Positions 372-34,304 of a DNA stretch of 64,000 nucleotides are shown one piece after another. Numbering within the stretch: position 1 is the first letter of the stretch; every line of letters begins with the position of its first letter. Position numbers and translations under genes: made by a program. Under the pieces are notes generated by a model, which ran no database searches, was not told the DNA's origin, and saw only the letters and a list, made by a program, of their open reading frames with translations. The DNA is from Phycisphaeraceae bacterium (GTDB lineage Bacteria > Planctomycetota > Phycisphaerae > Phycisphaerales > Zrk34): NCBI GenBank assembly GCA_028284925.1, contig JANQQT010000047.1:1-64000 (forward strand), read 5' to 3'.

Positions 372-388
372 ACCGTTTTGAAAACGGT
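372..388 (+). repeat. Perfect 17-nt palindrome in the leader
   Basis: ACCGTTTT-G-AAAACGGT is a perfect inverted repeat with a single central base. It lies 85 nt before the preferred ATG of the giant gene. The one-base spacer suits a DNA operator better than an RNA hairpin. It overlaps a TTG that could be read as an upstream start codon, which argues against that start. Confidence 0.45.
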
Positions 389-473
389 AGAGATGAATGA
401 GAGTTCGCTGCAATGGGAGAAACCGAATCAGTACCGAAAATTCAATTCCTTTGATACGGATGAGGAGTGTTTG

Positions 474-3400
474 ATGTTGTCAAGCAGACTAGAGCACATA
501 CGCGGGTGTCTGGTGGAAGATGTGCGTGACGGCCGAGTTCGGCGAGCGCGTCGGCGCACGATGGGGACGAGACCAATCGAGGCGAACCGGATGGAGACGT
601 TGGAGCAACGTTTGTTACTTGCATCCGACCCAATTGGTTACTGGTCGTTTGATAACGCGACGAACGTCGGCGAGGATTCGGGGCCCAACGGAAGTAATCT
701 GTTTTCAGTTGGCGGCGCAACGCATACGGCGGATGGGAAGTCCGGCGGCGGGTTGTCATTGGATGGGATTAATGATTATCTGGTGGGGTTGCCATCTCAG
801 CTACCGACGGGCGATTCGCCCTACACGATTTCGTCGTGGTTAAAAGCGGATGCGACCGGTGCGCGGGGTATTGTGGGCTGGGGAAGCTACGGACAGAGTC
901 GGCGGGTGAATGCGCTGCGACTATTTAATGACAACGGATTTCGACACTACTGGTGGGGGGCGGACCTGGATGCGAGTGATGGGCAAGTGGCGGGCAAGGG
1001 TGTGAATCTGGATGAGGGAGCGTGGCATCACATTGTTGCGCGCTATGACGGGGTTGATCGAGAGTTATGGCTCAACGGTGAGTTGCTGGTCAGCGATATA
1101 CCCGGGGCGAACAACTCGACAGCTGCGAATTTCAGGATTGGCTCAACCAATAACGGAGAGTATTTCGACGGGACGCTTGATGACGTTGCAATCTGGGATG
1201 TGGCGTTGGAAGACAGCGAGGTTATGGCGCTAGCAAACGGAACATCGCCATTGCAGCTTGACGGGTCGGGATTACTTGCGCACTGGTTGGCAGATGACCT
1301 GGATGCCTCGCTTGATACAGACGATCCAGTAGTGAGCTGGGTGGATTCGATTGGCGGGGTTGCTGCAAATGCTTCGTTTGGATCACCCATTTTCGAGGAA
1401 GGCGCGATCAATTCCCATGCCGTGGTGAGGTTTGATCCCGGTGATGGGGCGGACCAGTTGTTGGTGGATGCGGTGGAAAGTCCGCTTTCAGGTATTGAGG
1501 ATTTCACGGTAGCGGTCGTTTTCCGCGCCCCGGTGGCGGGTGTGGGAGGGGAATTCCAATGGACGGAAAATAGTGGGATTGTTGACGCATCCTCGGATTT
1601 GGCAGGGACGGATTTCGGGCTAGGGATAAACTCTGGTGGTCAGGTTGGGGCAGGATTAGGCAACCCTGATTTCACCGCATATTCGGATGGTGGGCAAGAT
1701 GACGGGTTTGCACATGTGGCGATTCTTTCTCGCTCAGGGGGAGAGACCCGGTTGTACGTAGATGGAGGTGATGGGTTTATAGGTGTGGGTGGTACGAGTG
1801 CATTGCTGACAACGGATTTGACTTTTGGCTCGCTGGCATCATCGACGAATTTCTTTTCGGGTGATATTGCCGAAATTCAGGTCTACGGGTCTGCATTTGA
1901 TACGGATGAGGCGTTTGCGCTGGCGAGTGAACTGGGGAATGCTTACGAGATTGCGATCGAAAGCCCGACGGTGGAGAGCGGCGCTGAATTGGTTGCACAG
2001 TTTGTGGCAGACGATATGCCCGGAGGAACCGTTGGTACGTGGACGAGTCGGATTGGGGGAGCGACGGCGACAGTTCTGGAATCCGACCCGACAACGGTGC
2101 AAGGTGTGTTAAATGGTCATTCGGTGGTGAGATTTGACGGGAATGATGCGTTGGGTATCGCTGCGGCGGAGAATCCATTTGCAGGCGCGAGGGATTTCTC
2201 TCTGGTGACGATATTTCAGACAGATACTGCGGGAGAGGCAGGGGCAAATTGGTTTGAGAATTCAGGATTGGTGGATATGAATCTGCCGGGCGATGCGGCG
2301 GATTGGGGATTGGCGATCGACGACCAGGGATTCCTGGTGGCGGGAATGGGAAGTCCGGTATCCGGGAACATTGGCGTTTCGACGACATCGGGTCAGGATG
2401 ACGGCCGCTTGCATGTGGCTGTGTTTACGCGTGCGGCGGGAACGATCACCTTATATGTGGATGGAGTCAATGAGGGGAGTTCGAGTCTGGGTGACGTTCT
2501 GGATCGTGAAACGGGAGATGTGGCGATTGGTCGAATTTTGTCAGGCGGAGGGTTCTTTACGGGTGATATCGCGGAGGTCCGGTTTTATGACAATGATTTG
2601 ACGGGTGATGAGGTTGCGACGCTATCAGAGGAATTGCAGTCAAATTATGCTGCGACGAGCTTGAATTACATTGACCAGGTGCTGGATGACAATCCGGATA
2701 CCTATTTGCGATTGGGTGAAGGATCAAACGGTGTTCCGGCAGTGGATGAGGCGGGAGGCGATAATAACGGGGTTTATAACGGATCGCCGGTGGTTGGAGT
2801 TGAAGGAGCGATTGGGACGGATACGGATACCGCGGTGCGATTCGACGGTGTGAATGATCATGTGGTGATTGACAACACGACGGGGTTAGATTTTACGATT
2901 GAGTTCTGGATGAAGTCTTCCGCACCGACGCCCTTTGGGGCACAGGCGTATCAGGGGAACGGATTGGCGTGGTCGGATGTGGGGGGCGGAGCCAATGACT
3001 TTGTGATTGCAGCAATGAACAATCGGGTGACCTTTTTTGAGGGTGGGACGGTCAACTCGACCGTGCATGGATTGAGTACGGTGAACAACGGGGAATGGCA
3101 TCACGTTGTAGCGACGCGTAAAGCGGGGGAACTGAGACGTTTGTATGTGGATGGTGTGGAAGAGCGAACGGGCGCGGCCGGGACGGGACTCCTCAATGCC
3201 AATCCAAACATTGTGATTGGAGCCAACACACTGGATGGACGTTTTTTTGACGGCGAGATCGACGAGTTTGCTTTGTATAACCGGGTATTGACGCCTGCAG
3301 AGGTATTAGCGCACTACGAGGCGGGTATTGCCGAAGGTCTGGCGCCGACGGCAATTCCAGATCAGTACAATGCGACGGAGGAAACTTTATTGACGGTGGG

Positions 3401-6400
3401 TGTGGAAGAGGGTGTACTAGAAAATGACACGTCCAATGAAGGATTGCCTTTGACGGCTGTGTTGTTGAATGATGTTGATCACGGAACGCTGAACCTGTCT
3501 CCGGACGGGTCGTTCACCTATTTGCCTGATCCGAACTTCGCGGGCGTGGATTCATTTACCTATAAGGCTCAGGATGCACAGGATTCGGTGACGACACTTG
3601 TGACGATTACGGTGGCGAATACGTTTGATCCGGCGACGGCTGTACCGGATGCGTACCTGGTGGCGCGTGATGAGACTTTGGCGGTGAGCGCTGGCGCGGG
3701 AGTGTTGGAAAATGATACGAATCCGGACAACGCCGCCGTGTTTAACGCTGTGTTGGGTGATGACGTAGATCACGGAACGTTAAATCTAGCGGCGGACGGG
3801 TCATTTGATTATGAGCCCAACGGAGGGTTTTCGGGCACGGACACATTTACATACACGATCTTTGACGGGACGCAGAATTCGAATGAGGTGACGGTGACGA
3901 TTACGGTTGATCCTCGACCGGAGGCAAGTGATGACTTGAGTTACGTGATGAATGAGGACGACACGCTGAATGTGTCAGCAGGAAGTGGGGTGCTGAATAA
4001 TGATGTGGACGACGATTCGCTGACGGCGATATTGGTGAATGATGTTTCAAGCGGAATGTTAACATTGAACGGCGATGGATCGTTCAGTTATGAACCGAAT
4101 GAAGATTTTTCAGGGACGGATGAGTTTACGTATTTCGCGACGGATGGAGAATTGGATTCATCGCCCGCGACGGTTCGGATTACGGTGAATGCGGTGAACG
4201 ATCCGCCGATTGGTGTAACTGACCAGTATTTCGCGTTTGAGGATCAAAATCTGAATGTTTCGGTGGGGCAAGGCTTGTTGGCGAATGACATTGATGTGGA
4301 TAATTCGTCATTGACGGTGGAGTTGTTGTCGCAGCCGGCGGTAGGAACGGGGACGGTGAGTATGAACGATGACGGATCGTTTACCTATTCGCCTCCGGCC
4401 GGGTTTGTGGGGTCCACATCCTTTGAATACCGGGTGTTTGACGGATTGGCACATTCGGACACGACGGCGGTATCGGTGGTGGTGAATTCGCGTGATGCGC
4501 AGGTGGTGATCAATGAGATCAATTATGATCCACCCGACAATACTGTTCCGGCCGAGTTTGTAGAGCTTTACAATGCGGGCCAGACGCCGGTGGATCTGTC
4601 GGGGTGGTTCTTCTCATCGGGGATTGAACTGACGATTCCGAATGGGACGGTGATGGCGCCAGATAGTTATCTGCTTGTTGCGGCGGACCCGGCGACCATT
4701 CAGAGTGTTTACGGGAAGAGTGCGATTGGGCCGTGGGTAGGAAAACTGTCGAATGACGGAGATCATTTGATCCTGCGCAATGCGGTGGGTGATAAGGTAG
4801 ATGAAGTGGATTATGGCGTGGGTTATCCGTGGCCGATTGGTCCGGCGGGTGACGGCGGATCTATGGAGTTGATTCATCCATCGCTTGACAATGATCTGGG
4901 TGGTAGTTGGCGTGTGTCGACGACATCTTCCACGTTGCCCCAGCAACCGGTGACTTTGCTTGGGGCGGCGGATACGGGTTGGAGTGTGCGAAAGGGTACG
5001 AATGTTCTCGGCGAACCGTCGAATCCGGTTGATGCCTGGCGACAACCAGAATTTGTTGAAGATGGGACGTGGATCCAAAACAGGCAGACGCCAGTTGGGT
5101 ATGGGGATAATGATGATAATTACCTTCTGGACGATATGCAGGGGAATTACTCGACGGTGTATCTGCGTAATACGTTTGATATAGGTCCGGAAGTTCCGGA
5201 GTTGATCCGATTGCGCGTATATGTAGATGACGGAGCAATCATTTATATCAACGGAGCGGAGATTGATCGCTTTAACATGGATGGTGCGGACAAAGCATTT
5301 AACTCGTTTACGGGTCAGAACGCAGTGGGTAATGCGAGCTGGGTTGATGTGACTTATATCAATCCGGAACAGTTCTTTACACCGGGTATCAATACGATCG
5401 CGATTCATTCGATCAATGCGACATTGGGTTCGAGTGATTTGTCAATCGATATAGAGGTTGTGATTCCAGGGGCTAGTGACGCGTTGGCGGAGCCTTCGCC
5501 GGGTGAGAAGAATTCAGCGTTTGCGACAAACACAGCGCCTCAGACGCGTCAGGTAAAGCATGGGCCGAATGAGCCGGTTGCGGGCGAAGATGTGGTATTG
5601 ACAATTAAGGCGACAGATCCGGATGGTGTAGCGTCGGTGAATCTGGAATATCAGGTGGTATTGCCGGGTTCTTATATTCCCGCGTTTATTCCCGTGCCTA
5701 TCAATACGTTGATTTCGAATGCGAGTACGCCGACAACGCCTAATCCGGCGTATTTTGACCCTGCAAACTGGACAACGGTTGTGATGGTCGATGATGGAAC
5801 GGGGGCGGATGAAGTGGCGGGAGATAACATTTACACTGCGGTCATACCGGGGCAGATTAATCGTTCGCTGGTGCGGTATCGAATGACGGTGGAGGATACG
5901 CTGGGCGAATCGGTGACTGTTCCTTATGCGGATGATCCGTCACTCAACTTTGCGTATTTTGTTTACGACGGTGTGCCAGATTATCAGGGGATTTCATCGG
6001 AGATTCTGGAGAGTCTCCCGGTGTATCAGTTCCTGACGCGTGCGGAGGATATGAGTACGGTATTGGCTTACAGTTCTACGGAGATTCCACAAGGTACACA
6101 GGCGAGATTTGCGTATAACTGGCCGGGAACGATGGTTTATGACGGGGAGGTATACGACAATATCAAGTATCGGTTGCGCGGGGCGAATGGTCGGTATCAT
6201 CTGGACGGTAAGCGGTCGATGCGATTCCGATTCAATAAGGGAAGCTATTTCCAGGCCCATGACAACGATGGAAATAAATTGCCGGAGAAATTCCGAACGT
6301 TGACGACGGGCAAGGGGTTTGACAATCGGGGGACATTGACGTGGGGGTTGAACGAAGCAGTTTCGATGCACCTGTTTAATGAGATCGGTGTGCCGGGTTC

Positions 6401-9400
6401 AGAGACGTATTGGTTCCATTTCCGCGTGATTGATGGCGTGGATGAGGCGCCGAATCAATGGAATGGTGATTTCTGGGGAACCAACTTTGTGTTGGAGACT
6501 TACGATGTACGCTTCCTGGAATCGCATGATCTGGAGAAGGGAAACCTTTATAAGCTCATTAACCAAACGACAAACTGGGAGCAGCAACAGCGTTACCAGG
6601 CTCCCAATGCAGTTACAGACGGGTCCGACCATAACAACATCGAGAATAACCTTGACGGCTTTGATACGGCGGCTCATATCGATGCGCACGTGAATCTGGA
6701 GAAATGGAATCTGTTCCATGCGTTGGCGGAGGCGATACGCCATTACGATTTCTGGCCCAGCGCCAATAAGAATATGGTTTACTACTTTGAGCCTGACTAT
6801 TTGCCGGAGAATAGCAATCGCGGGAAGTTGTGGATCTTGCCGTGGGATACGGATGCGAGCTGGGGACCGACTTGGAATAGCGGTCACGATGTGGTTTATA
6901 ACGCTTTGTTCCCGGCGGGAGGCGGTGGAAGCGATAGTGGATCAACGCCAGAGTTGTGGCCAGCGTACTTTAATACGGTACGTGAGTTGCGGGACCTGCT
7001 GTGGCAGCCGGATCAGATTGAACCTTTGATTGATGAGTTTGCGGATGTGATACGCGACTTTATTCCGGCGGACGAGATGCGCTGGAAGGGCGCACCGTTT
7101 AATTCGGGGAGTTACAACGGATTGGGAGGCGCCGGCTCGATTTCGTTTGACAATCTGGTTCAGGATATGAAGAACTTCGCGTTTTCAGGTGGGAGCTGGC
7201 CCGGTGGCGGCGTAGGGGCGGGCGGCCGGGCCGCCCATCTTGATGTGTTGCAGGGGTCTAATGGTGAAGGAGGTCAGATACCCAATACGCCAACCTTGAG
7301 TTATGTAGGGGATGTGAATTTCCCAACGAATGGACTGCGCCTTAGATCAAGCAGCTTCAGTGATCCACAGGGAAGCGGGACGTTTGGGGCGGTGGAATTC
7401 AGAGTGGCGGAAGTAACGGATTCTAATGCACCGAATTTTGATCCCGAAGCGAAGTTCCTGCTGGAGTGGAACGCGGATTGGGAGAGCGGGGAGTTAATGA
7501 CGTGGGATTTCAATGACGCGATCGATATTCCGGCAAGTGCGATCAAGGTAGGGAGTTCGTATCGAGCGAGGGTGCGTGTGATGGATAACTCGGGACGGTG
7601 GAGCCACTGGTCGGATGCGGTTTCGTTTATTGCGACTCAGCCGAATAATGTCGATGCGTTGCTGGACGATCTGCGAATCACTGAAATTCATTACAACCCT
7701 GCGGATGCGCCGGTCAACCAAGGATTCTCAAATTCTGACTTTGAGTTTATTGAGTTGAGGAATACGGGCATTTCGACGCTTGATTTGACGGATGTCTTAA
7801 TTTCGGGCGGCATTGAGTTTGACTTTACGGGATCGGATGTGACGACGCTAGATGCCGGTGAGTTTGTTGTGGTGGTGGGGGATGCGGCTGCATTTGACCT
7901 TCGTTATGAGACGGCAGGAATCAACGTGGCCGGTGTGTTTGGTAGTTCGCTATCGAATGGCGGAGAGGATATTACGTTATCGTTTGGGGCGGATACGATC
8001 ATTCAGCAGTTTGATTATGATGATGACGGCGATTGGCCGGAGAGAGCTGATGGATCGGGTTTCTCGCTTGAGATCAAAGATACAAGCCTTGACTATAGCG
8101 ACGGTGATTCGTGGCGGTCGAGTCGGGAGTATCACGGGACGCCCGGGTTTATTGGGAGCGGACCGATTGACTCAATTGTTATTAATGAGGTATTGACCCA
8201 TACGGACCTTCCTCTGACTGATTCGATTGAGTTGTTTAACCCGACGGGGTTGCCGATCGATTTATCGGGATGGGTGCTGTCGGATTCAGATGAGGAATAT
8301 GAGAAGTTTGAATTTCCTGATGGGTTTGTGATACCAGCAGGTGGATACGCTGTGCTGACGGAAGCGGACTTCAATTCGGGAGGAAGCCTGATTGATTTTG
8401 CGCTTTCGAGTGCGAAGGGTGATGAAGTCTGGCTCATGGAACGCGATGGTAGTGGGGTGATTACAAATTATGTCGATCATGTGAGATTTGGAGGCGCCTT
8501 GAACGGCGAATCGTTTGGTCGTTGGCCAAATGGAATCGGCGATTTGTATCCGATGGTTTCCCGGACGTTTGGCGGTGTCAATTCAGGGCCGCGCGTTGGG
8601 CCATTGATCATCAGCGAAGTGCATTTCCATCCGGCGACGCCGACAGCAGGTGAATTGGCTGCGCTGCCTGGTGTAACGGCGGAAGATTTTGAGTTTATTG
8701 AAATTGCGAATCCGACGGGAGCAGCGGTTGATCTGGAGAACTGGCGTGTCAGGGGTGGAATTGATTTTGATTTTGCGGCGGGAACGGTGATTGAGCCGAA
8801 CGGCGTGTTGGTTTTGGTGGATTTTGATCCGACTGATGTGGCGAATAATACGCTACTTGGGTTGTTCAGATCACGGTATGAAATCGACGGATCGGTCGAA
8901 TTGGTTGGCGGATTCTCGGGTAAATTGGATAACGAAGGTGAATCTGTGAGGCTGGAGCGACCGGATTCACCACCTGCGGATGATCCTGATTTTATTCCGC
9001 ATGTGTTGGAGGACGCGTTCAGGTATAACCAGGTTGCACCTTGGCCGACGAATAATTCAGGAACGGGTAACTCATTGCAGCGGAAAGCAGTGACAAGCTG
9101 GGGGAATGATCCTGCAAGCTGGAGTGGCTTGGCGGCCACACCGGGTTCGGTGGATTTCGGTGTGACGCCAAATGTGGATGTTCATCTTGTGCCGCGAATT
9201 CTGGGGTCCGGGGTGTCGTTAAGTGGAAGTCTGCCGGTATCGGATAACGACCCGGTGACGGGTGGCGGTGGAACGCCGTTTTATCAAAGGGAGGGGAATA
9301 TGTTCATGGTGGAGGTTTGGGTGAAGTCCGATCAGCTGGCGAGTCCGGGGAGTGTCGTTGAAACGGGCTCGATTACGCTTACGTTTGACAGCGCATTCGC

Positions 9401-10007
9401 GGAGTATCTGGCCGTGGATCACGGGGATGTGTTTAACGAGGTTGGAACGACATTTGAGACCTTTACATCTGCAGGCTCGAGTAGTACGTTGGCATTTGGC
9501 GGCAGCACGAACCTGACGGGGGTTGGTGATGATGAATTTGCGTTGCTGGGCCGCGTGATGTTTAAGGCTAACGCACCGATTGATGCAGCAGGTAGTGTTT
9601 TTGGACCATTTGATACGGGGATAAACGCCATTGCAGGACCAAGCAGTTTTGAGTTGGGCGGTGGATTGGGGGCCGCGACCGCGGATGTTCAGTCGGCTCC
9701 GGTGGTCGAAACGCGAGCCGTGATTTATGACTTCGACAACAACGGGATCGTGAACTTCGCTGATTTGGGACTTTTCCTACCAGCGATGGGCCTGGTATCG
9801 GGAGGAAGTCAGCCGCCTTATACCAATTGGGGGGATTTTGATAATGACGGTCAGGTAGATGAGGATGATTTGGACCTGCTTCTGGGTGCATTTGCCAAGC
9901 CGTTTGATGGTCCGCTGGACATACCTACGAGTGCGAAGTCTGAGAGTGGCGGCGGAGGTGGAGGTGATAGTGAGGTTGACTTGCTGGAAGAGGCAGGCGC
10001 CATCTGA
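474..10007 (+). CDS. Giant LEPR-XLL exoprotein with LamG, cadherin-like, lamin-tail, CotH-kinase, cohesin-like and dockerin-like domains
   Basis: This is a secreted or surface multidomain protein of about 3,177 residues. After a basic N-terminus comes a LEPR-XLL tag (METLEQRLLLAS). In order follow four concanavalin/LamG-like domains (about nt 630-3330), four cadherin-like/VCBS repeats with the DGSFxYxP and FTY pattern (3345-4490), a lamin-tail domain (from VVINEINYDP, 4500-4900), a galactose-binding-like segment (5030-5460), a CotH-kinase-like domain (about 6000-7100, with KRSMRFRF and LWILPWDTD), a fibronectin-like segment, three more lamin-tail domains (7670-9150), a cohesin-like domain (9170-9690) and a dockerin-like pair of calcium loops (DFDNNGIVNFADLG; 9724-9890). 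ATG 474 is chosen because GAGGAG lies 6 nt upstream. ATG 393 and TTG 378 are in-frame alternatives. A role in adhesion or cell-surface matrix is inferred, not shown. Confidence 0.9.
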   Translation: MLSSRLEHIRGCLVEDVRDGRVRRARRRTMGTRPIEANRMETLEQRLLLASDPIGYWSFDNATNVGEDSGPNGSNLFSVGGATHTADGKSGGGLSLDGINDYLVGLPSQLPTGDSPYTISSWLKADATGARGIVGWGSYGQSRRVNALRLFNDNGFRHYWWGADLDASDGQVAGKGVNLDEGAWHHIVARYDGVDRELWLNGELLVSDIPGANNSTAANFRIGSTNNGEYFDGTLDDVAIWDVALEDSEVMALANGTSPLQLDGSGLLAHWLADDLDASLDTDDPVVSWVDSIGGVAANASFGSPIFEEGAINSHAVVRFDPGDGADQLLVDAVESPLSGIEDFTVAVVFRAPVAGVGGEFQWTENSGIVDASSDLAGTDFGLGINSGGQVGAGLGNPDFTAYSDGGQDDGFAHVAILSRSGGETRLYVDGGDGFIGVGGTSALLTTDLTFGSLASSTNFFSGDIAEIQVYGSAFDTDEAFALASELGNAYEIAIESPTVESGAELVAQFVADDMPGGTVGTWTSRIGGATATVLESDPTTVQGVLNGHSVVRFDGNDALGIAAAENPFAGARDFSLVTIFQTDTAGEAGANWFENSGLVDMNLPGDAADWGLAIDDQGFLVAGMGSPVSGNIGVSTTSGQDDGRLHVAVFTRAAGTITLYVDGVNEGSSSLGDVLDRETGDVAIGRILSGGGFFTGDIAEVRFYDNDLTGDEVATLSEELQSNYAATSLNYIDQVLDDNPDTYLRLGEGSNGVPAVDEAGGDNNGVYNGSPVVGVEGAIGTDTDTAVRFDGVNDHVVIDNTTGLDFTIEFWMKSSAPTPFGAQAYQGNGLAWSDVGGGANDFVIAAMNNRVTFFEGGTVNSTVHGLSTVNNGEWHHVVATRKAGELRRLYVDGVEERTGAAGTGLLNANPNIVIGANTLDGRFFDGEIDEFALYNRVLTPAEVLAHYEAGIAEGLAPTAIPDQYNATEETLLTVGVEEGVLENDTSNEGLPLTAVLLNDVDHGTLNLSPDGSFTYLPDPNFAGVDSFTYKAQDAQDSVTTLVTITVANTFDPATAVPDAYLVARDETLAVSAGAGVLENDTNPDNAAVFNAVLGDDVDHGTLNLAADGSFDYEPNGGFSGTDTFTYTIFDGTQNSNEVTVTITVDPRPEASDDLSYVMNEDDTLNVSAGSGVLNNDVDDDSLTAILVNDVSSGMLTLNGDGSFSYEPNEDFSGTDEFTYFATDGELDSSPATVRITVNAVNDPPIGVTDQYFAFEDQNLNVSVGQGLLANDIDVDNSSLTVELLSQPAVGTGTVSMNDDGSFTYSPPAGFVGSTSFEYRVFDGLAHSDTTAVSVVVNSRDAQVVINEINYDPPDNTVPAEFVELYNAGQTPVDLSGWFFSSGIELTIPNGTVMAPDSYLLVAADPATIQSVYGKSAIGPWVGKLSNDGDHLILRNAVGDKVDEVDYGVGYPWPIGPAGDGGSMELIHPSLDNDLGGSWRVSTTSSTLPQQPVTLLGAADTGWSVRKGTNVLGEPSNPVDAWRQPEFVEDGTWIQNRQTPVGYGDNDDNYLLDDMQGNYSTVYLRNTFDIGPEVPELIRLRVYVDDGAIIYINGAEIDRFNMDGADKAFNSFTGQNAVGNASWVDVTYINPEQFFTPGINTIAIHSINATLGSSDLSIDIEVVIPGASDALAEPSPGEKNSAFATNTAPQTRQVKHGPNEPVAGEDVVLTIKATDPDGVASVNLEYQVVLPGSYIPAFIPVPINTLISNASTPTTPNPAYFDPANWTTVVMVDDGTGADEVAGDNIYTAVIPGQINRSLVRYRMTVEDTLGESVTVPYADDPSLNFAYFVYDGVPDYQGISSEILESLPVYQFLTRAEDMSTVLAYSSTEIPQGTQARFAYNWPGTMVYDGEVYDNIKYRLRGANGRYHLDGKRSMRFRFNKGSYFQAHDNDGNKLPEKFRTLTTGKGFDNRGTLTWGLNEAVSMHLFNEIGVPGSETYWFHFRVIDGVDEAPNQWNGDFWGTNFVLETYDVRFLESHDLEKGNLYKLINQTTNWEQQQRYQAPNAVTDGSDHNNIENNLDGFDTAAHIDAHVNLEKWNLFHALAEAIRHYDFWPSANKNMVYYFEPDYLPENSNRGKLWILPWDTDASWGPTWNSGHDVVYNALFPAGGGGSDSGSTPELWPAYFNTVRELRDLLWQPDQIEPLIDEFADVIRDFIPADEMRWKGAPFNSGSYNGLGGAGSISFDNLVQDMKNFAFSGGSWPGGGVGAGGRAAHLDVLQGSNGEGGQIPNTPTLSYVGDVNFPTNGLRLRSSSFSDPQGSGTFGAVEFRVAEVTDSNAPNFDPEAKFLLEWNADWESGELMTWDFNDAIDIPASAIKVGSSYRARVRVMDNSGRWSHWSDAVSFIATQPNNVDALLDDLRITEIHYNPADAPVNQGFSNSDFEFIELRNTGISTLDLTDVLISGGIEFDFTGSDVTTLDAGEFVVVVGDAAAFDLRYETAGINVAGVFGSSLSNGGEDITLSFGADTIIQQFDYDDDGDWPERADGSGFSLEIKDTSLDYSDGDSWRSSREYHGTPGFIGSGPIDSIVINEVLTHTDLPLTDSIELFNPTGLPIDLSGWVLSDSDEEYEKFEFPDGFVIPAGGYAVLTEADFNSGGSLIDFALSSAKGDEVWLMERDGSGVITNYVDHVRFGGALNGESFGRWPNGIGDLYPMVSRTFGGVNSGPRVGPLIISEVHFHPATPTAGELAALPGVTAEDFEFIEIANPTGAAVDLENWRVRGGIDFDFAAGTVIEPNGVLVLVDFDPTDVANNTLLGLFRSRYEIDGSVELVGGFSGKLDNEGESVRLERPDSPPADDPDFIPHVLEDAFRYNQVAPWPTNNSGTGNSLQRKAVTSWGNDPASWSGLAATPGSVDFGVTPNVDVHLVPRILGSGVSLSGSLPVSDNDPVTGGGGTPFYQREGNMFMVEVWVKSDQLASPGSVVETGSITLTFDSAFAEYLAVDHGDVFNEVGTTFETFTSAGSSSTLAFGGSTNLTGVGDDEFALLGRVMFKANAPIDAAGSVFGPFDTGINAIAGPSSFELGGGLGAATADVQSAPVVETRAVIYDFDNNGIVNFADLGLFLPAMGLVSGGSQPPYTNWGDFDNDGQVDEDDLDLLLGAFAKPFDGPLDIPTSAKSESGGGGGGDSEVDLLEEAGAI

Positions 10008-29981: not shown

Positions 29982-31589
29982 ATGAATGATCAAGAGAAAT
30001 TTGGGTTTGATTTCGAATTAGGGAAGGCAGTAGCAGGTGATGCGGTTAGACGTGAAGAAATACCCATGATGATCCTGTTGATGGGGGATTTCTCTGGACG
30101 AGCGAACCGGGGGATTTGTGAGGTGGGGAATACACTGGCGGAGCAGCGTGCCGTTTACATTGACGTCGATAATTTTGAAGAAGTGATGGGAAGAATGAGA
30201 CCAACGATCGATGTGCAGGTGACGGAAGATAAGAGTGAAGGAATGCGACTAGCTTTTGAAGAGATGGAGGATTTTGACCCGGATACGCTCTACCGCAAAT
30301 TAGATATTTTTGCAAGGTTGCGTGAGCAACGAAAGCGACTAAAGGATGCTTCGACATTCGCGGAAGCCGCCGCGGAAATGCGGGAATGGGCGTCCATGAG
30401 CGAGGAAACATTTGGCGTAAAAGAAGCGACACAAACAATGAAACAAGTCGAACCAACGAGAAAAGTCGATAAGGACGAAGACGAGGAAGAGAATGTATTT
30501 CAACGTTTGTTGGGGCAATCGGCGGGCGGCAGCATAGATACAACGAAAACGGGAAACACGGGCCACGCTCAAACACCAAAAGGTTCGATCGACATTAATC
30601 GACTGATTAAACAGATCGTGGGTGAGCACTTCGTACCGGCGCCGGATCCACAGATGGATCAGTATGTTTCTGCGGTGGATAATGCAATTGCGGATCAAAT
30701 GCGACGGATTCTGCGTGATGAGAGCTTCTCTGAATTGGAAGCGACATGGCGGAGCGTGTGGAATGTGGTTACGAATGTGGAAACAGATGAATCGCTCAAG
30801 GTCTTTCTTCTCGATATATCAAAGGAAGAATTGCTTGCCAACGTGGGTGAGGCGTTGGATGACTTAACCAGAGCCGGTATTTTTCGATTGCTGGTTGGGC
30901 AAACAGTCAATGTGCCTGGAGCTGATCAATGGTCCGTATTCGCAGGTAATTATATGTTTGGCCCGGATGCAACGGATGTAGCGCTACTCGCATCGCTCGG
31001 AATGATGGCAGCGGCAGCTGGCGCGTGTTTTATTGCGGATGGTAGCCCTGCATTTGCGGGATTGGAATCATTTGCGGACTCAGGTGATTCGACGCTTTGG
31101 CCGGGCCTGAGTGGTGAAGCGAACGAACGCTGGATGTCACTGAGAGAAAGTGCTGTGGCCAAGTACATCGGGTTGATTGGACCGCGTGTGATGATGAGAT
31201 TGCCGTATTCTCCTGAGACCGACGAGGTAGACGCGTTCGAATTTCGCGAGCTTGCCTCCGAGGTCGGGCACGAGGGTTATGTGTGGGGATCGGCGGCGTT
31301 TGGCTTGGTAAGGCTTTTGGCGAAAGGGTTTATGACAAAAGGTTGGAAAATGCGCCCGGGCGATGAGCCAATGCTGGACGGGCTGCCCGCACATATCATC
31401 ACCGAAGAAAACGAACAGACAATGTATCCGCCAACGGAGGTGTATCTCACGGATCGATCAGCCGAGGCGCTGTCGAAAGCGGGAATATCACCCTTGATGA
31501 GTTATATGGATAGACCGGCGGCAAGGTTGACACGGTATCATTCTATAGCCAACCCCGACGTTGCGCTCAGCGGACCTTGGGGAAACTAA
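29982..31589 (+). CDS. Fused type VI secretion contractile sheath protein (TssB-TssC fusion)
   Basis: This 535-residue protein joins the two subunits of the T6SS sheath. Residues about 25-150 match TssB/VipA: MMILLMGDFSGR, then VDNFEEVMGRMRP and the EMEDFDPDTLYRKL block. A polar linker (about 150-205) follows. Residues about 205-530 match TssC/VipB: LEATWRSVWNVV, VFLLDISKEEL, LRESAVAKYIGLIGPRVMMR, GYVWGSAAFGL and the late PPTEVYLTDRSAEALS block. In standard systems these are two proteins that interlock to build the contractile tube. GAGGT lies 5-6 nt before the ATG. No baseplate, tube (Hcp), spike or ClpV gene is in the window. The gene ends 8 nt from the convergent sigma-partner gene. Confidence 0.85.
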   Translation: MNDQEKFGFDFELGKAVAGDAVRREEIPMMILLMGDFSGRANRGICEVGNTLAEQRAVYIDVDNFEEVMGRMRPTIDVQVTEDKSEGMRLAFEEMEDFDPDTLYRKLDIFARLREQRKRLKDASTFAEAAAEMREWASMSEETFGVKEATQTMKQVEPTRKVDKDEDEEENVFQRLLGQSAGGSIDTTKTGNTGHAQTPKGSIDINRLIKQIVGEHFVPAPDPQMDQYVSAVDNAIADQMRRILRDESFSELEATWRSVWNVVTNVETDESLKVFLLDISKEELLANVGEALDDLTRAGIFRLLVGQTVNVPGADQWSVFAGNYMFGPDATDVALLASLGMMAAAAGACFIADGSPAFAGLESFADSGDSTLWPGLSGEANERWMSLRESAVAKYIGLIGPRVMMRLPYSPETDEVDAFEFRELASEVGHEGYVWGSAAFGLVRLLAKGFMTKGWKMRPGDEPMLDGLPAHIITEENEQTMYPPTEVYLTDRSAEALSKAGISPLMSYMDRPAARLTRYHSIANPDVALSGPWGN

Positions 31590-31597
31590 AGTTGGAG

Positions 31598-33760
31598 TTA
31601 CTTTGATTTTTCCTTCGAAAGTAGCGACCGGATCTCATTGACAAGACTCAATAGCTTGAGTTTTCTTGGCGTAGATGGTTTGTCATAAACGTAGAACCCT
31701 GTTGGTGCATTATTCTCGAAGTTAATCGTGTTTAGAAGATGAATCACAGGATCAAGATCAGCGGGCAAAGGCTTGTCTGATTTCAGAACGTGACCGATAG
31801 ATGCGGCAGCGACTGCGAGGCGAGTAGCGGTTGAGGTAGATTGAACTGGTTGAGCATCATGATGAATATGATGCGCTAATGCCCCTGATTGATCTGAGTG
31901 GTAAGAAGTTCGAACGGACAACCACGCTGTCGCATGGTTAGACAATCCCGACCGCTTATTTCCACCATGATTTGCATTTCCCTTAATACCATTGTTATTC
32001 GAAACCTTACCGTACGCGACGGCATCCGAATTCGTGGGAATAACCTCGTATAATAGTGTGACTGTGTCGAGCGAGTGACTAATTAAGGCACTCTCCGGAA
32101 TCGCGGCCAGCTTTCTTCGAAATTCTTCGATGTTTGGGTGTCGCTCGAATCCAATGACCCGATAAGACTTCACAAACCTGGGGTTTATTTTTACGAAAAT
32201 GGACAGTTTTTGAATGGGCTGAGCAAGGTGATTATCACTGAGCGTAATACGAACAAGTCGATTGGTGGGCGACCAGGGTGAAAGTAACATTTCCGAATCG
32301 ACTCGAATGGGAGAACTGGACTCGGCTTGCGAAACGCGCGGCAAATTCACTGCATTGATCAGTGAAACAACATCAATTTGGTTTGGGTGAGGCTTCCGGC
32401 CTCGCCTGATCAACGAGGTAATCAATTCAAGATTGCCCGTGGGCACAATAAGAAGCGGTATATGACTTGAATTCTTACCAATCTTCTGAAACGGACTGAG
32501 TGGCCTTATCCCCTTGAAAGTGATCTGTTGTGGAACATTAATACTTTCGACTCTGGAGTCTGCCTTCCCGCTATCTGGACGGCGTAGGGTCTTTGCGTCC
32601 TCTATCGATTGACTGGCTGAAGTGCCGCCCTTTTTTTTCCCTTCGTGATGCCCTCGACGCACAGGTTGATTTGAACGAGAGCGGAATGCACCCTTGTCAG
32701 GATCCGACTTTGCAGGGGTTGCGCGCCGTTTCTCCGGAACCGGCTTCTTAACCCCTTGCTTTCCGATATTGTGTTGGAGCTCGGTTCCTTTTTTATCTGA
32801 AGAGTGGTCTTTTGCCAGATGATTCATTTGACTTGGCTTCGACTCACTCTTACGAAGAAGATGCGCGAATGAAGCAAGGGTTCGAACCGCCGGCTGAGAT
32901 CGCCGAAGCTGGTTTGAAGACTCATTTCCCTTTGAACCGGCAGTTTTCAGTGACTTAGCCGAGAGAGGACTTGGTGATGGGGATGTGGCAACAGAAGAAG
33001 GTTCGGGCTTACCGGGCAATGCTTTTGTGAGATCTCGTTTCTTGGCTTGTGCCTGAGGCTTTTTGTCCTGTTGATCACGCACCAAATGTTTCTTGGGCGA
33101 AAGAGGATCGGCCTTGGGATCTGGTAATTTTCCGCCTGCGGCTTTTCGCATGGCAGAACCCGCAGCCCTCTTGACAAAATTCGCTCTCGCCGATTCAGAC
33201 TTCTTATCTAATTTCGTAGACGCCGACTTAGCATCAGTTGACCGTTTTAGCTCCTTTCGTAATCCTGCATGGTTATCGTCCCGACTCCGGGATTGGGCCT
33301 GGAGATCATCCATATCGACCTCATCTTCATCGGATTCCGTATTTCTGAGAGGCGAAGGAGGCTTATGTTCGGGGTCTCCAAATTCATGTGTGGCAACGGT
33401 ACGGGAGTTTCCGGAATCAGACTCATGGCCGATGAAGAGAAACAGACTGACGCCGAGTGCGATTGCAGCGGCGGTAGCAAGAGGGAGAAAAGACGCTATT
33501 TGCCAGCCATCATGCACCGGCGCATATCGATCATCAATACGAGCATAGATTTCGTCGCGTTGGTCCGCAGACAGAGATGGACCTTGTTCCTCTTGAAGCT
33601 GTTTGGATAGATCGCCGGCCAATGACTGAATAAGTTCAACTTGTTTTCTAGCATCTTCGTTGGAGGCAATCATGTCCTCAACTTCGTCGCGATGCTCCTG
33701 ATCTATTTCGCCAAGTGCAAAGTCGGTCAGTTTTTGATCTTCTTTAGGATCGTAGGGCAT
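31598..33760 (-). CDS. Membrane protein with anti-sigma-like N-terminus and YfbK-like flanks lacking the VWA core
   Basis: This 720-residue single-pass protein lies directly downstream of an ECF sigma gene (16 nt). Residues 1-80 are acidic and cytoplasmic, with an anti-sigma-like start (LTDFALGEIDQEHRDEVE). A helix at about 87-110 crosses the membrane. A long basic, Ser/Lys/Pro-rich linker runs to about residue 410. Residues about 415-510 resemble the region that precedes the VWA domain in YfbK-type proteins (SLIRRGRKPHPNQIDVVSLIN, shortened here to its conserved part, and SPWSPTNRLVRITL). Residues about 515-580 resemble the region after it (INPRFVKSYRVIGFERH, TVTLLYEVIP). Only about a dozen residues separate them, so the metal-binding VWA fold is missing. 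It probably controls the sigma factor; this rests on position and the N-terminus only. Confidence 0.7.
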   Translation of the reverse strand: MPYDPKEDQKLTDFALGEIDQEHRDEVEDMIASNEDARKQVELIQSLAGDLSKQLQEEQGPSLSADQRDEIYARIDDRYAPVHDGWQIASFLPLATAAAIALGVSLFLFIGHESDSGNSRTVATHEFGDPEHKPPSPLRNTESDEDEVDMDDLQAQSRSRDDNHAGLRKELKRSTDAKSASTKLDKKSESARANFVKRAAGSAMRKAAGGKLPDPKADPLSPKKHLVRDQQDKKPQAQAKKRDLTKALPGKPEPSSVATSPSPSPLSAKSLKTAGSKGNESSNQLRRSQPAVRTLASFAHLLRKSESKPSQMNHLAKDHSSDKKGTELQHNIGKQGVKKPVPEKRRATPAKSDPDKGAFRSRSNQPVRRGHHEGKKKGGTSASQSIEDAKTLRRPDSGKADSRVESINVPQQITFKGIRPLSPFQKIGKNSSHIPLLIVPTGNLELITSLIRRGRKPHPNQIDVVSLINAVNLPRVSQAESSSPIRVDSEMLLSPWSPTNRLVRITLSDNHLAQPIQKLSIFVKINPRFVKSYRVIGFERHPNIEEFRRKLAAIPESALISHSLDTVTLLYEVIPTNSDAVAYGKVSNNNGIKGNANHGGNKRSGLSNHATAWLSVRTSYHSDQSGALAHHIHHDAQPVQSTSTATRLAVAAASIGHVLKSDKPLPADLDPVIHLLNTINFENNAPTGFYVYDKPSTPRKLKLLSLVNEIRSLLSKEKSK

Positions 33761-33776: not shown

Positions 33777-34304
33777 TCATGTTCTTGTCGCGGAGACAGG
33801 ATCTGTTACAAGTTTCTTTCTGAGAGATTTAAGCGCGGCATGAATGAGAAAGCCGACGTTGGATACGCTTTGGTCAGTGATCTTGCTAATCTGACGATAC
33901 GAGAGTCCCTGTTGGAATTTGAGTCGGATAACTTCCTGCTGCTTGGGAGGCAGTGTGTCGATGGCGTCAATCGCACGGGTTTGGGATTCATTGTTTTCAA
34001 TGAGGTCATGGGGTTGATCCTCGGTGCTCTGATCATTGGCAAGTGTGACGTCGCTAAGCTGTGTCATGCGCTTTTCCTTGCGAAGCACATCGAGGGCGCG
34101 ATTTCGACACACAGTGTATAGCCATTCGACAAGGTGACCCTGAATGTCTTCCTTGTTCTGATTGCAGAGTTTAAGGAAGGTATCCTGAACGATGTCGGCG
34201 GCCCGCTGTGGATCCCGTATAAAGCGCGCGGCATATTGCATCAGGCGGCGCTCATGACGCTCCACCGCTTCACGGATCCACTGACCTCCGTGTTCATCGG
34301 TCAC
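33777..34304 (-). CDS. ECF-type RNA polymerase sigma factor
   Basis: This 175-residue sigma-70 family factor has region 2 (QYAARFIRDPQRAADIVQDTFLKL) and region 4 (LPPKQQEVIRLKFQQGLSY followed by RQISKITDQSVSNVGFLIHAALKSLRKKL), with no region 1 or 3. It starts with GTG, and GGAG lies 9 nt upstream. A strong hairpin in the leader ends 2-3 nt before that ribosome-binding site. The next gene, 16 nt downstream, encodes its likely membrane-bound partner. The stimulus and regulon cannot be told from the window. Confidence 0.92.
   Translation of the reverse strand: MTDEHGGQWIREAVERHERRLMQYAARFIRDPQRAADIVQDTFLKLCNQNKEDIQGHLVEWLYTVCRNRALDVLRKEKRMTQLSDVTLANDQSTEDQPHDLIENNESQTRAIDAIDTLPPKQQEVIRLKFQQGLSYRQISKITDQSVSNVGFLIHAALKSLRKKLVTDPVSATRT

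Follow-up and report, generated by a model that had tools for sequence, protein, structure and literature searches.

A YfbK-type scaffold without its VWA domain in a putative membrane anti-sigma factor encoded behind an ECF sigma gene in Planctomycetota

Directly behind an ECF sigma factor gene of Phycisphaeraceae bacterium (Planctomycetota; assembly GCA_028284925.1), we found an open reading frame in which both flanks of the YfbK-type proteins are kept, and the VWA domain that separates them in relatives, together with its DxSxS MIDAS motif, is missing. That such a VWA-less, YfbK-flanked frame stands behind an ECF sigma gene is confirmed to be more than chance. The derivation of this short form by VWA loss is a well supported inference, and the same loss happened several times beside one sigma family. 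In proteins of this kind the VWA is usually regarded as the working part, and its repeated removal beside a single sigma family, with the scaffold kept, amounts to a natural deletion series. Below, the window means the whole stretch of DNA that was analysed (64,000 nucleotides, positions 1 to 64,000 of contig JANQQT010000047.1).

The gene pair and its anti-sigma-like portion

The pair and the segments of the window protein are as follows.

33777-34304 (-): ECF sigma factor, 175 aa, GTG start, recognised by profile matches
31598-33760 (-): VWA-less anti-sigma protein, 720 aa, open throughout with no internal stop
33503-33760 (-): acidic anti-sigma-like N-terminal domain, residues 1-86 (NF052375; alignment with relatives beside orthologous sigma factors)
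33425-33499 (-): single membrane helix, about residues 88-112 (hydropathy)
32516-33424 (-): long, mostly basic low-complexity linker, residues 113-415 (charge counts)
32249-32425 (-): N-side flank, PF12450-like, residues 446-504 (Pfam under cut-off; hhalign)
32207-32239 (-): 11-residue junction, residues 508-518, at the VWA site of relatives (comparison with intact relatives)
31769-32203 (-): C-side flank, PF12034 (YfbK_C), residues 520-664 (Pfam above cut-off)
32066-32098 (-): residues 555-565, PESALISHSLD, where intact relatives carry the motif DAGEIGAGH, lost here (alignment)
31604-31831 (-): predicted helices that follow the beta-sandwich at the C-terminus, residues 644-719 (AlphaFold2 model)

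The two genes are separated by 16 nt, from the end of the sigma gene to the start of the anti-sigma gene, and this pairing is retained in relatives. The sigma factor matches Sigma70_r2 (E 1.2e-13) and Sigma70_r4_2 (E 8.9e-13) in Pfam, and the sigma70-ECF model TIGR02937 in NCBIfam above its cut-off (E 6.5e-28).

The initial annotation, made from the letters alone, had described an acidic anti-sigma-like N-terminus, one membrane helix and a long basic linker, and the acidity, the helix and the linker were borne out. Residues 1-86 have a net charge of -14, and the NCBIfam anti-sigma model NF052375 aligns with residues 11-113 at E 1.7e-6, but with 28 bits against a cut-off of 100. The sole hydrophobic stretch of the protein reaches its hydropathy maximum (2.28) at residues 92-110. 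Within the linker, residues 161-415 hold 57 K/R versus 26 D/E (net +31), and residues 113-160 have a net charge of -8. The protein contains no cysteine and is without the Hx3Cx2C zinc motif. In six partners of this sigma family scanned with NCBIfam, no model matched above its cut-off, which reveals an annotation gap, and the matches to anti-sigma models in the scanned partners all fell under cut-off.

Two other genes of the window are worth recording. Convergent with the anti-sigma gene, a 535-aa protein (29982-31589, +) unites VipA-like and VipB-like type VI secretion sheath subunits in one chain, and a 3209-aa protein (378-10007, +) combines four matches each to Laminin_G_3, Big_9 and LTD with a CotH kinase domain.

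Two flanks around an 11-residue junction

The YfbK-like segments that had been proposed on both sides of the missing domain were recovered with profile methods. On the N side, PF12450 matches residues 446-504 under the Pfam cut-off (16.3 bits, E 0.0095), and hhalign of the window segment alone against 35 intact relatives aligned this flank over 75 columns, up to LVRITLSDNHL, at E 8.1e-7. On the C side, residues 520-664 are recognised by PF12034 (E 6.6e-10; 39.9 bits, cut-off 25), versus 183-262 bits in the VWA-bearing proteins scanned beside this sigma family. LVRITL ends at residue 507 and LSIFVKINP starts at 519, leaving 11 residues where about a dozen had been estimated at first; in the intact partners of the census described below, about 171-194 residues lie between the flank matches, with a PF00092 VWA domain there in the relatives scanned. 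Translation of the 64-kb window in all six frames contained no VWA-like stretch at E<=0.01, in a search that detected the domain in 4/4 control loci with intact proteins. The base composition is coding-like in each segment of the 720-codon frame.

Relatives and recurrence of the short form

The whole window protein was matched in 10 of 61 genomes of its family and order, its own genome included. Of ten proteins from this and neighbouring searches scanned with Pfam, eight show PF12450, VWA and PF12034 in this order; the other two are the separate anti-sigma frame of a split pair (L058) and a protein with an F5/8C domain. The latter (L061:6465-7502, -; genome G006, of the window's family) is a sigma partner in which this galactose-binding domain takes the place of the YfbK module. 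Among nine genomes of the family, the closest orthologous sigma factor (52% identity) is found in G002, whose partner has an intact VWA. As the relatives beside the same sigma factor, G002 included, usually have an intact VWA, the short form is best read as derived by loss.

A pattern-based search for related loci with the window protein returned 21 pattern matches, none of which was confirmed. When residues 405-720 were compared with 397 genomes of the class, 30 genomes matched, and in two of them (G289 and G259) the matches run ungapped across both flanks. In each of the two the orthologous sigma gene lies immediately upstream, and Pfam detects no VWA. Further short forms were found in G242, in G162 of the window's own order, and in G822 of another class, the last when 392 genomes of the phylum were searched, of which 200 had a match. 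A sigma factor adjoins each of these five short forms. In G333, a congener of G242, the frame is cut at a contig end, and no VWA end is visible in the few residues upstream. With the window included, contiguous short forms represent 6 of 88 distinct C-flank frames, from loci that are an uneven sample.

A census by sigma factor was obtained by scanning GTDB contigs with 16 aligned sigma factor sequences and keeping the best 80 of at least 363 relatives, whatever their VWA state. Among these best 80, 49 partners have a VWA (three are cut by a contig end; L200 ends early inside its VWA), 12 have flanks without VWA (including L222, with a long insert unmatched by any VWA model), 13 have no flank at E<=0.001 and six are cut and undecided. 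Excluding L222 and counting three weak-flank partners (L235, L264 and L272, with matches of 12-14 bits), 14 of the best 80 of at least 363 are VWA-less with flanks, or 11 of 80 without those three. L264 and L272, together with L267, align with alignment A1 at hhalign E 7.1e-10, and L235 was counted because of its weak match and because it falls within alignment A6 and the clade. Eleven of the 14 belong to one Verrucomicrobiota clade, two to Opitutaceae (L231, L271) and one to Candidatus Anammoxibacter (L258). The Verrucomicrobiota clade is wholly VWA-less (support 98/90); its proteins align with 35 intact ones over 254 columns (E 7.5e-27), with both flanks aligned and the VWA as a single large gap, and with four Planctomycetota short forms, the window first, at E 2.4e-23.

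Together, the six short forms from genome searches (window included) and the 14 from the census give 20 fully read VWA-less proteins, in which Pfam VWA is found in 0/20, PF12450 in 17/20 and PF12034 in 14/20 (E<=0.1). The initial annotation had regarded an intact VWA in close relatives at the same locus as the mark of a recent deletion; such a relative was found in G002, but the short form recurs in 20 proteins and a clade of 11 is wholly VWA-less, so that stable short-form families do exist. A literature search for VWA-less YfbK-type anti-sigma factors found no paper, the latest ECF re-classification lying outside its reach.

Other partners of this sigma family vary in their make-up. In both Opitutaceae loci, another frame, located upstream of the VWA-less pair, encodes flanks with an intact VWA (L231:408-3203, L271:838-5397). 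In two Hydrogenedentota loci, the partner ends in DUF4349 (L257:6001-7398, L276:5022-6263), and a 1393-aa partner in Pirellulaceae has VIT and DUF2135 (L251:6093-10271). The partners in L241, L275 and L277 have no recognised domain, and those of the clade formed by L241, L247, L248, L253 and L266 are about 185-188 aa long, have an N-terminus of anti-sigma-like type and lack the flanks. Such variety agrees with a module that can be exchanged or cut down next to a constant anti-sigma part.

Number and direction of the losses

The sigma tree (107 rows, 178 columns, many forks open) includes 78 rows with a VWA state and 29 without. On this tree the VWA state changes nine times, with at least five changes forced by starred branches and a bootstrap range of 8-9, and the count was still nine with 89 labelled rows. 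Two well supported neighbour pairs have opposite VWA states (L102/L107 and L134/L137). A single origin of all 20 short forms was rejected (p-AU 4e-10). A single clade of the five short forms that belong to the class of the window was marginal (p-AU 0.067), and a clade of the window with L193, from the same order, was not rejected (p 0.418), the position of the window's branch being open; therefore, its loss cannot be called independent of that of L193. The tree is unrooted and its changes give no direction. Loss as the direction is indicated by L231, in which a remnant of the VWA end (GGGTLVTIAK) is kept, and by the split flanks, which only make sense around an insert.

The C-side flank offers a further lead. 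DAG[ED]xG is present in 55/58 intact rows versus 1/20 VWA-less rows, the exception being L231, where the loss is apparently recent. The two intact rows of 58 without a DxSxS MIDAS (L243 and L274) are both among the three that lack the motif. This distribution suggests that the motif may serve the VWA, as a lead only: among independent pairs, 2-4 of the five starred ones agree and none opposes (p 0.125-0.5, not significant). In L243, L274 and L222, all Verrucomicrobiota, the flanks enclose a VWA-sized or longer insert without DxSxS, and these proteins are possible intermediates; Pfam found no VWA in L222 or L274.

Selection on the short form

The close pair L250/L254 of the Verrucomicrobiota clade (94% identical short forms) is under purifying selection. 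Its dN/dS is 0.15 over the whole protein and 0.21 for the flank region, where 25 synonymous and 17 non-synonymous differences were counted; for the sigma factors of the pair it is 0.04. These values speak for constraint within the clade and not within the lineage of the window; in three further pairs the divergence was too great for dS. A bare scaffold that has been kept in one lineage after repeated loss is probably still useful.

Predicted structure

AlphaFold2 predicted residues 405-720 (50 sequences) as seven long strands followed by three helices, with a mean pLDDT of 77.3 and a pTM of 0.79; most of the core exceeds pLDDT 80 and the strand order is kept. In the model of the intact partner L233 (35 sequences, pLDDT 88.7, pTM 0.88), the elements follow one another in the same order, and the VWA is inserted behind the second strand of the sandwich. 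With Foldseek, the short-form model had no PDB match at E<=0.001, the best rows being adaptin ear domains (E 0.023). In VIA-align, whose lists do not exclude a family by its absence, the short form retrieved ArnB (8s05_B) first, over 158 residues with an rmsd of 4.0 and a Z of 8.1 that is borderline by the tool's own note, and the next match had Z 5.3. The intact model matched ITIH1 6fpy (Z 23.3, rmsd 5.6, 316 residues), 4fx5 (Z 22.4, rmsd 5.9, 339 residues) and ArnB 8s05_B (Z 21.5, rmsd 6.8, 326 residues).

According to the accessible parts of the ArnAB papers, ArnB has a beta-sandwich split by the vWA and then a helical domain, with E. coli YfbK as a predicted member (PMC12852372, PMC6509490). 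The short form is predicted to be a Sec23/ArnB/YfbK-like beta-sandwich with helices from which the VWA has been removed. The initial annotation had proposed a scaffold that lost metal-dependent ligand binding and kept its beta domain, possibly as a new sensor type. This proposal is supported in part: the homologous flanks, the predicted single beta-sandwich with helices and the missing MIDAS uphold its first half, and an extracytoplasmic sensing role is possible.

How the emptied scaffold may work

We favour with fair confidence the reading that the window protein is a membrane anti-sigma factor in which a bare beta-sandwich and helical module has replaced a MIDAS-dependent input. The VWA would have been excised just where it is naturally inserted, after which the beta-sandwich closed. 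The N-terminal domain may bind the sigma factor and tether it at the membrane, and the linker would place the scaffold beyond the membrane; the protein may be an extracytoplasmic sensor. The bare module past the linker could then be the input surface, responding to a partner or ligand without the MIDAS metal, and a conformational change or proteolysis might release the sigma factor. Such a scaffold can indeed be a docking surface, since the zinc finger of ArnA docks on ArnB at the beta-sandwich and the C-terminal domain, as stated in the accessible part of that report (PMC12852372). The divergence of the window protein (39.9 bits), the negative Foldseek search, the borderline Z of 8.1, the anti-sigma matches under cut-off and the non-significant association of motif loss with VWA loss in independent pairs all speak against the bare-scaffold reading.

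Alternatively, the VWA deletion may have broken the sensor in the window's lineage, leaving a drifting gene and a sigma factor that is merely held or unregulated. The strong divergence of the window's flanks and the lost C-flank motif point that way, as does a reduction series running from the inserts without MIDAS (L243, L274) and the unrecognised insert of L222 to the anti-sigma-only partners of about 185-188 aa. Nevertheless, 720 open codons with coding-like composition in each segment, a model that keeps its strand order and has most of its core above pLDDT 80, and the persistence of the 11-member VWA-less clade, with purifying selection in one close pair, make such decay unlikely. Still less probable is a split system, in which another protein would supply the VWA in trans by docking on the emptied beta-sandwich. 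A further YfbK-like protein, whose VWA is intact, is indeed encoded elsewhere in the window genome (L060), and the L231 and L271 loci have their VWA-bearing frame upstream; however, no VWA was detected in 18 of the 20 sources of a VWA-less protein, the 64-kb window among them, other VWA proteins have flanks of their own, and the C-flank motif of intact proteins is missing in 19/20 short forms. An assembly or gene-model artefact is hardly credible even in a draft genome of 311 contigs, given the single open frame, the absence of a VWA in any frame nearby and the short forms of other genomes.

If the emptied scaffold is the input domain of the window protein, the wider pattern might represent a class of MIDAS-independent ECF anti-sigma sensors, in which a YfbK/Sec23-type scaffold would have become the input domain repeatedly, in some lines via a VWA without its metal site; we see the case for such a class as evenly balanced. 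The series from intact proteins through VWA domains without MIDAS and scaffold-only proteins to the anti-sigma part alone makes the role of the VWA in ECF signalling, and sensing by the scaffold alone, addressable.

Comparison with known systems

The window protein shares both flanks, in the same order and with profile homology, with the YfbK-type VWA proteins (PF12450-VWA-PF12034). Unlike them, it is devoid of the VWA, the MIDAS and the DAGEIGAGH motif, and its scaffold sits behind an anti-sigma-like N-terminus. The VWA-bearing partners of Planctomycetota, Verrucomicrobiota and others (e.g., L059 and L233) stand beside an orthologous sigma factor and have the same N-terminal domain, helix, linker and flanks, but they keep a VWA of about 185 residues that the window protein does not have.

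The predicted beta-sandwich and helices may also resemble ArnB and vWA2 of Sulfolobus and the Sec23/Sec24 core (PDB 8s05, 5a8j). In contrast to the window protein, these keep the inserted vWA, whose MIDAS is intact in both ArnB and vWA2, and they are without an anti-sigma part as far as the accessible parts of the papers describe them (PMC12852372, PMC6509490).

Finally, class I anti-sigma factors of the RskA, RseA and RsiW type have, as in the window, a small N-terminal domain, one membrane helix and a gene behind that of an ECF sigma factor, and the accessible part of one report describes RskA and RseA as lacking the Hx3Cx2C zinc motif (PMC7406223), like the window protein. Nevertheless, the latter differs from these factors in its matches to anti-sigma models, which are under cut-off, and in the 300-residue linker and YfbK scaffold that it carries behind the helix.
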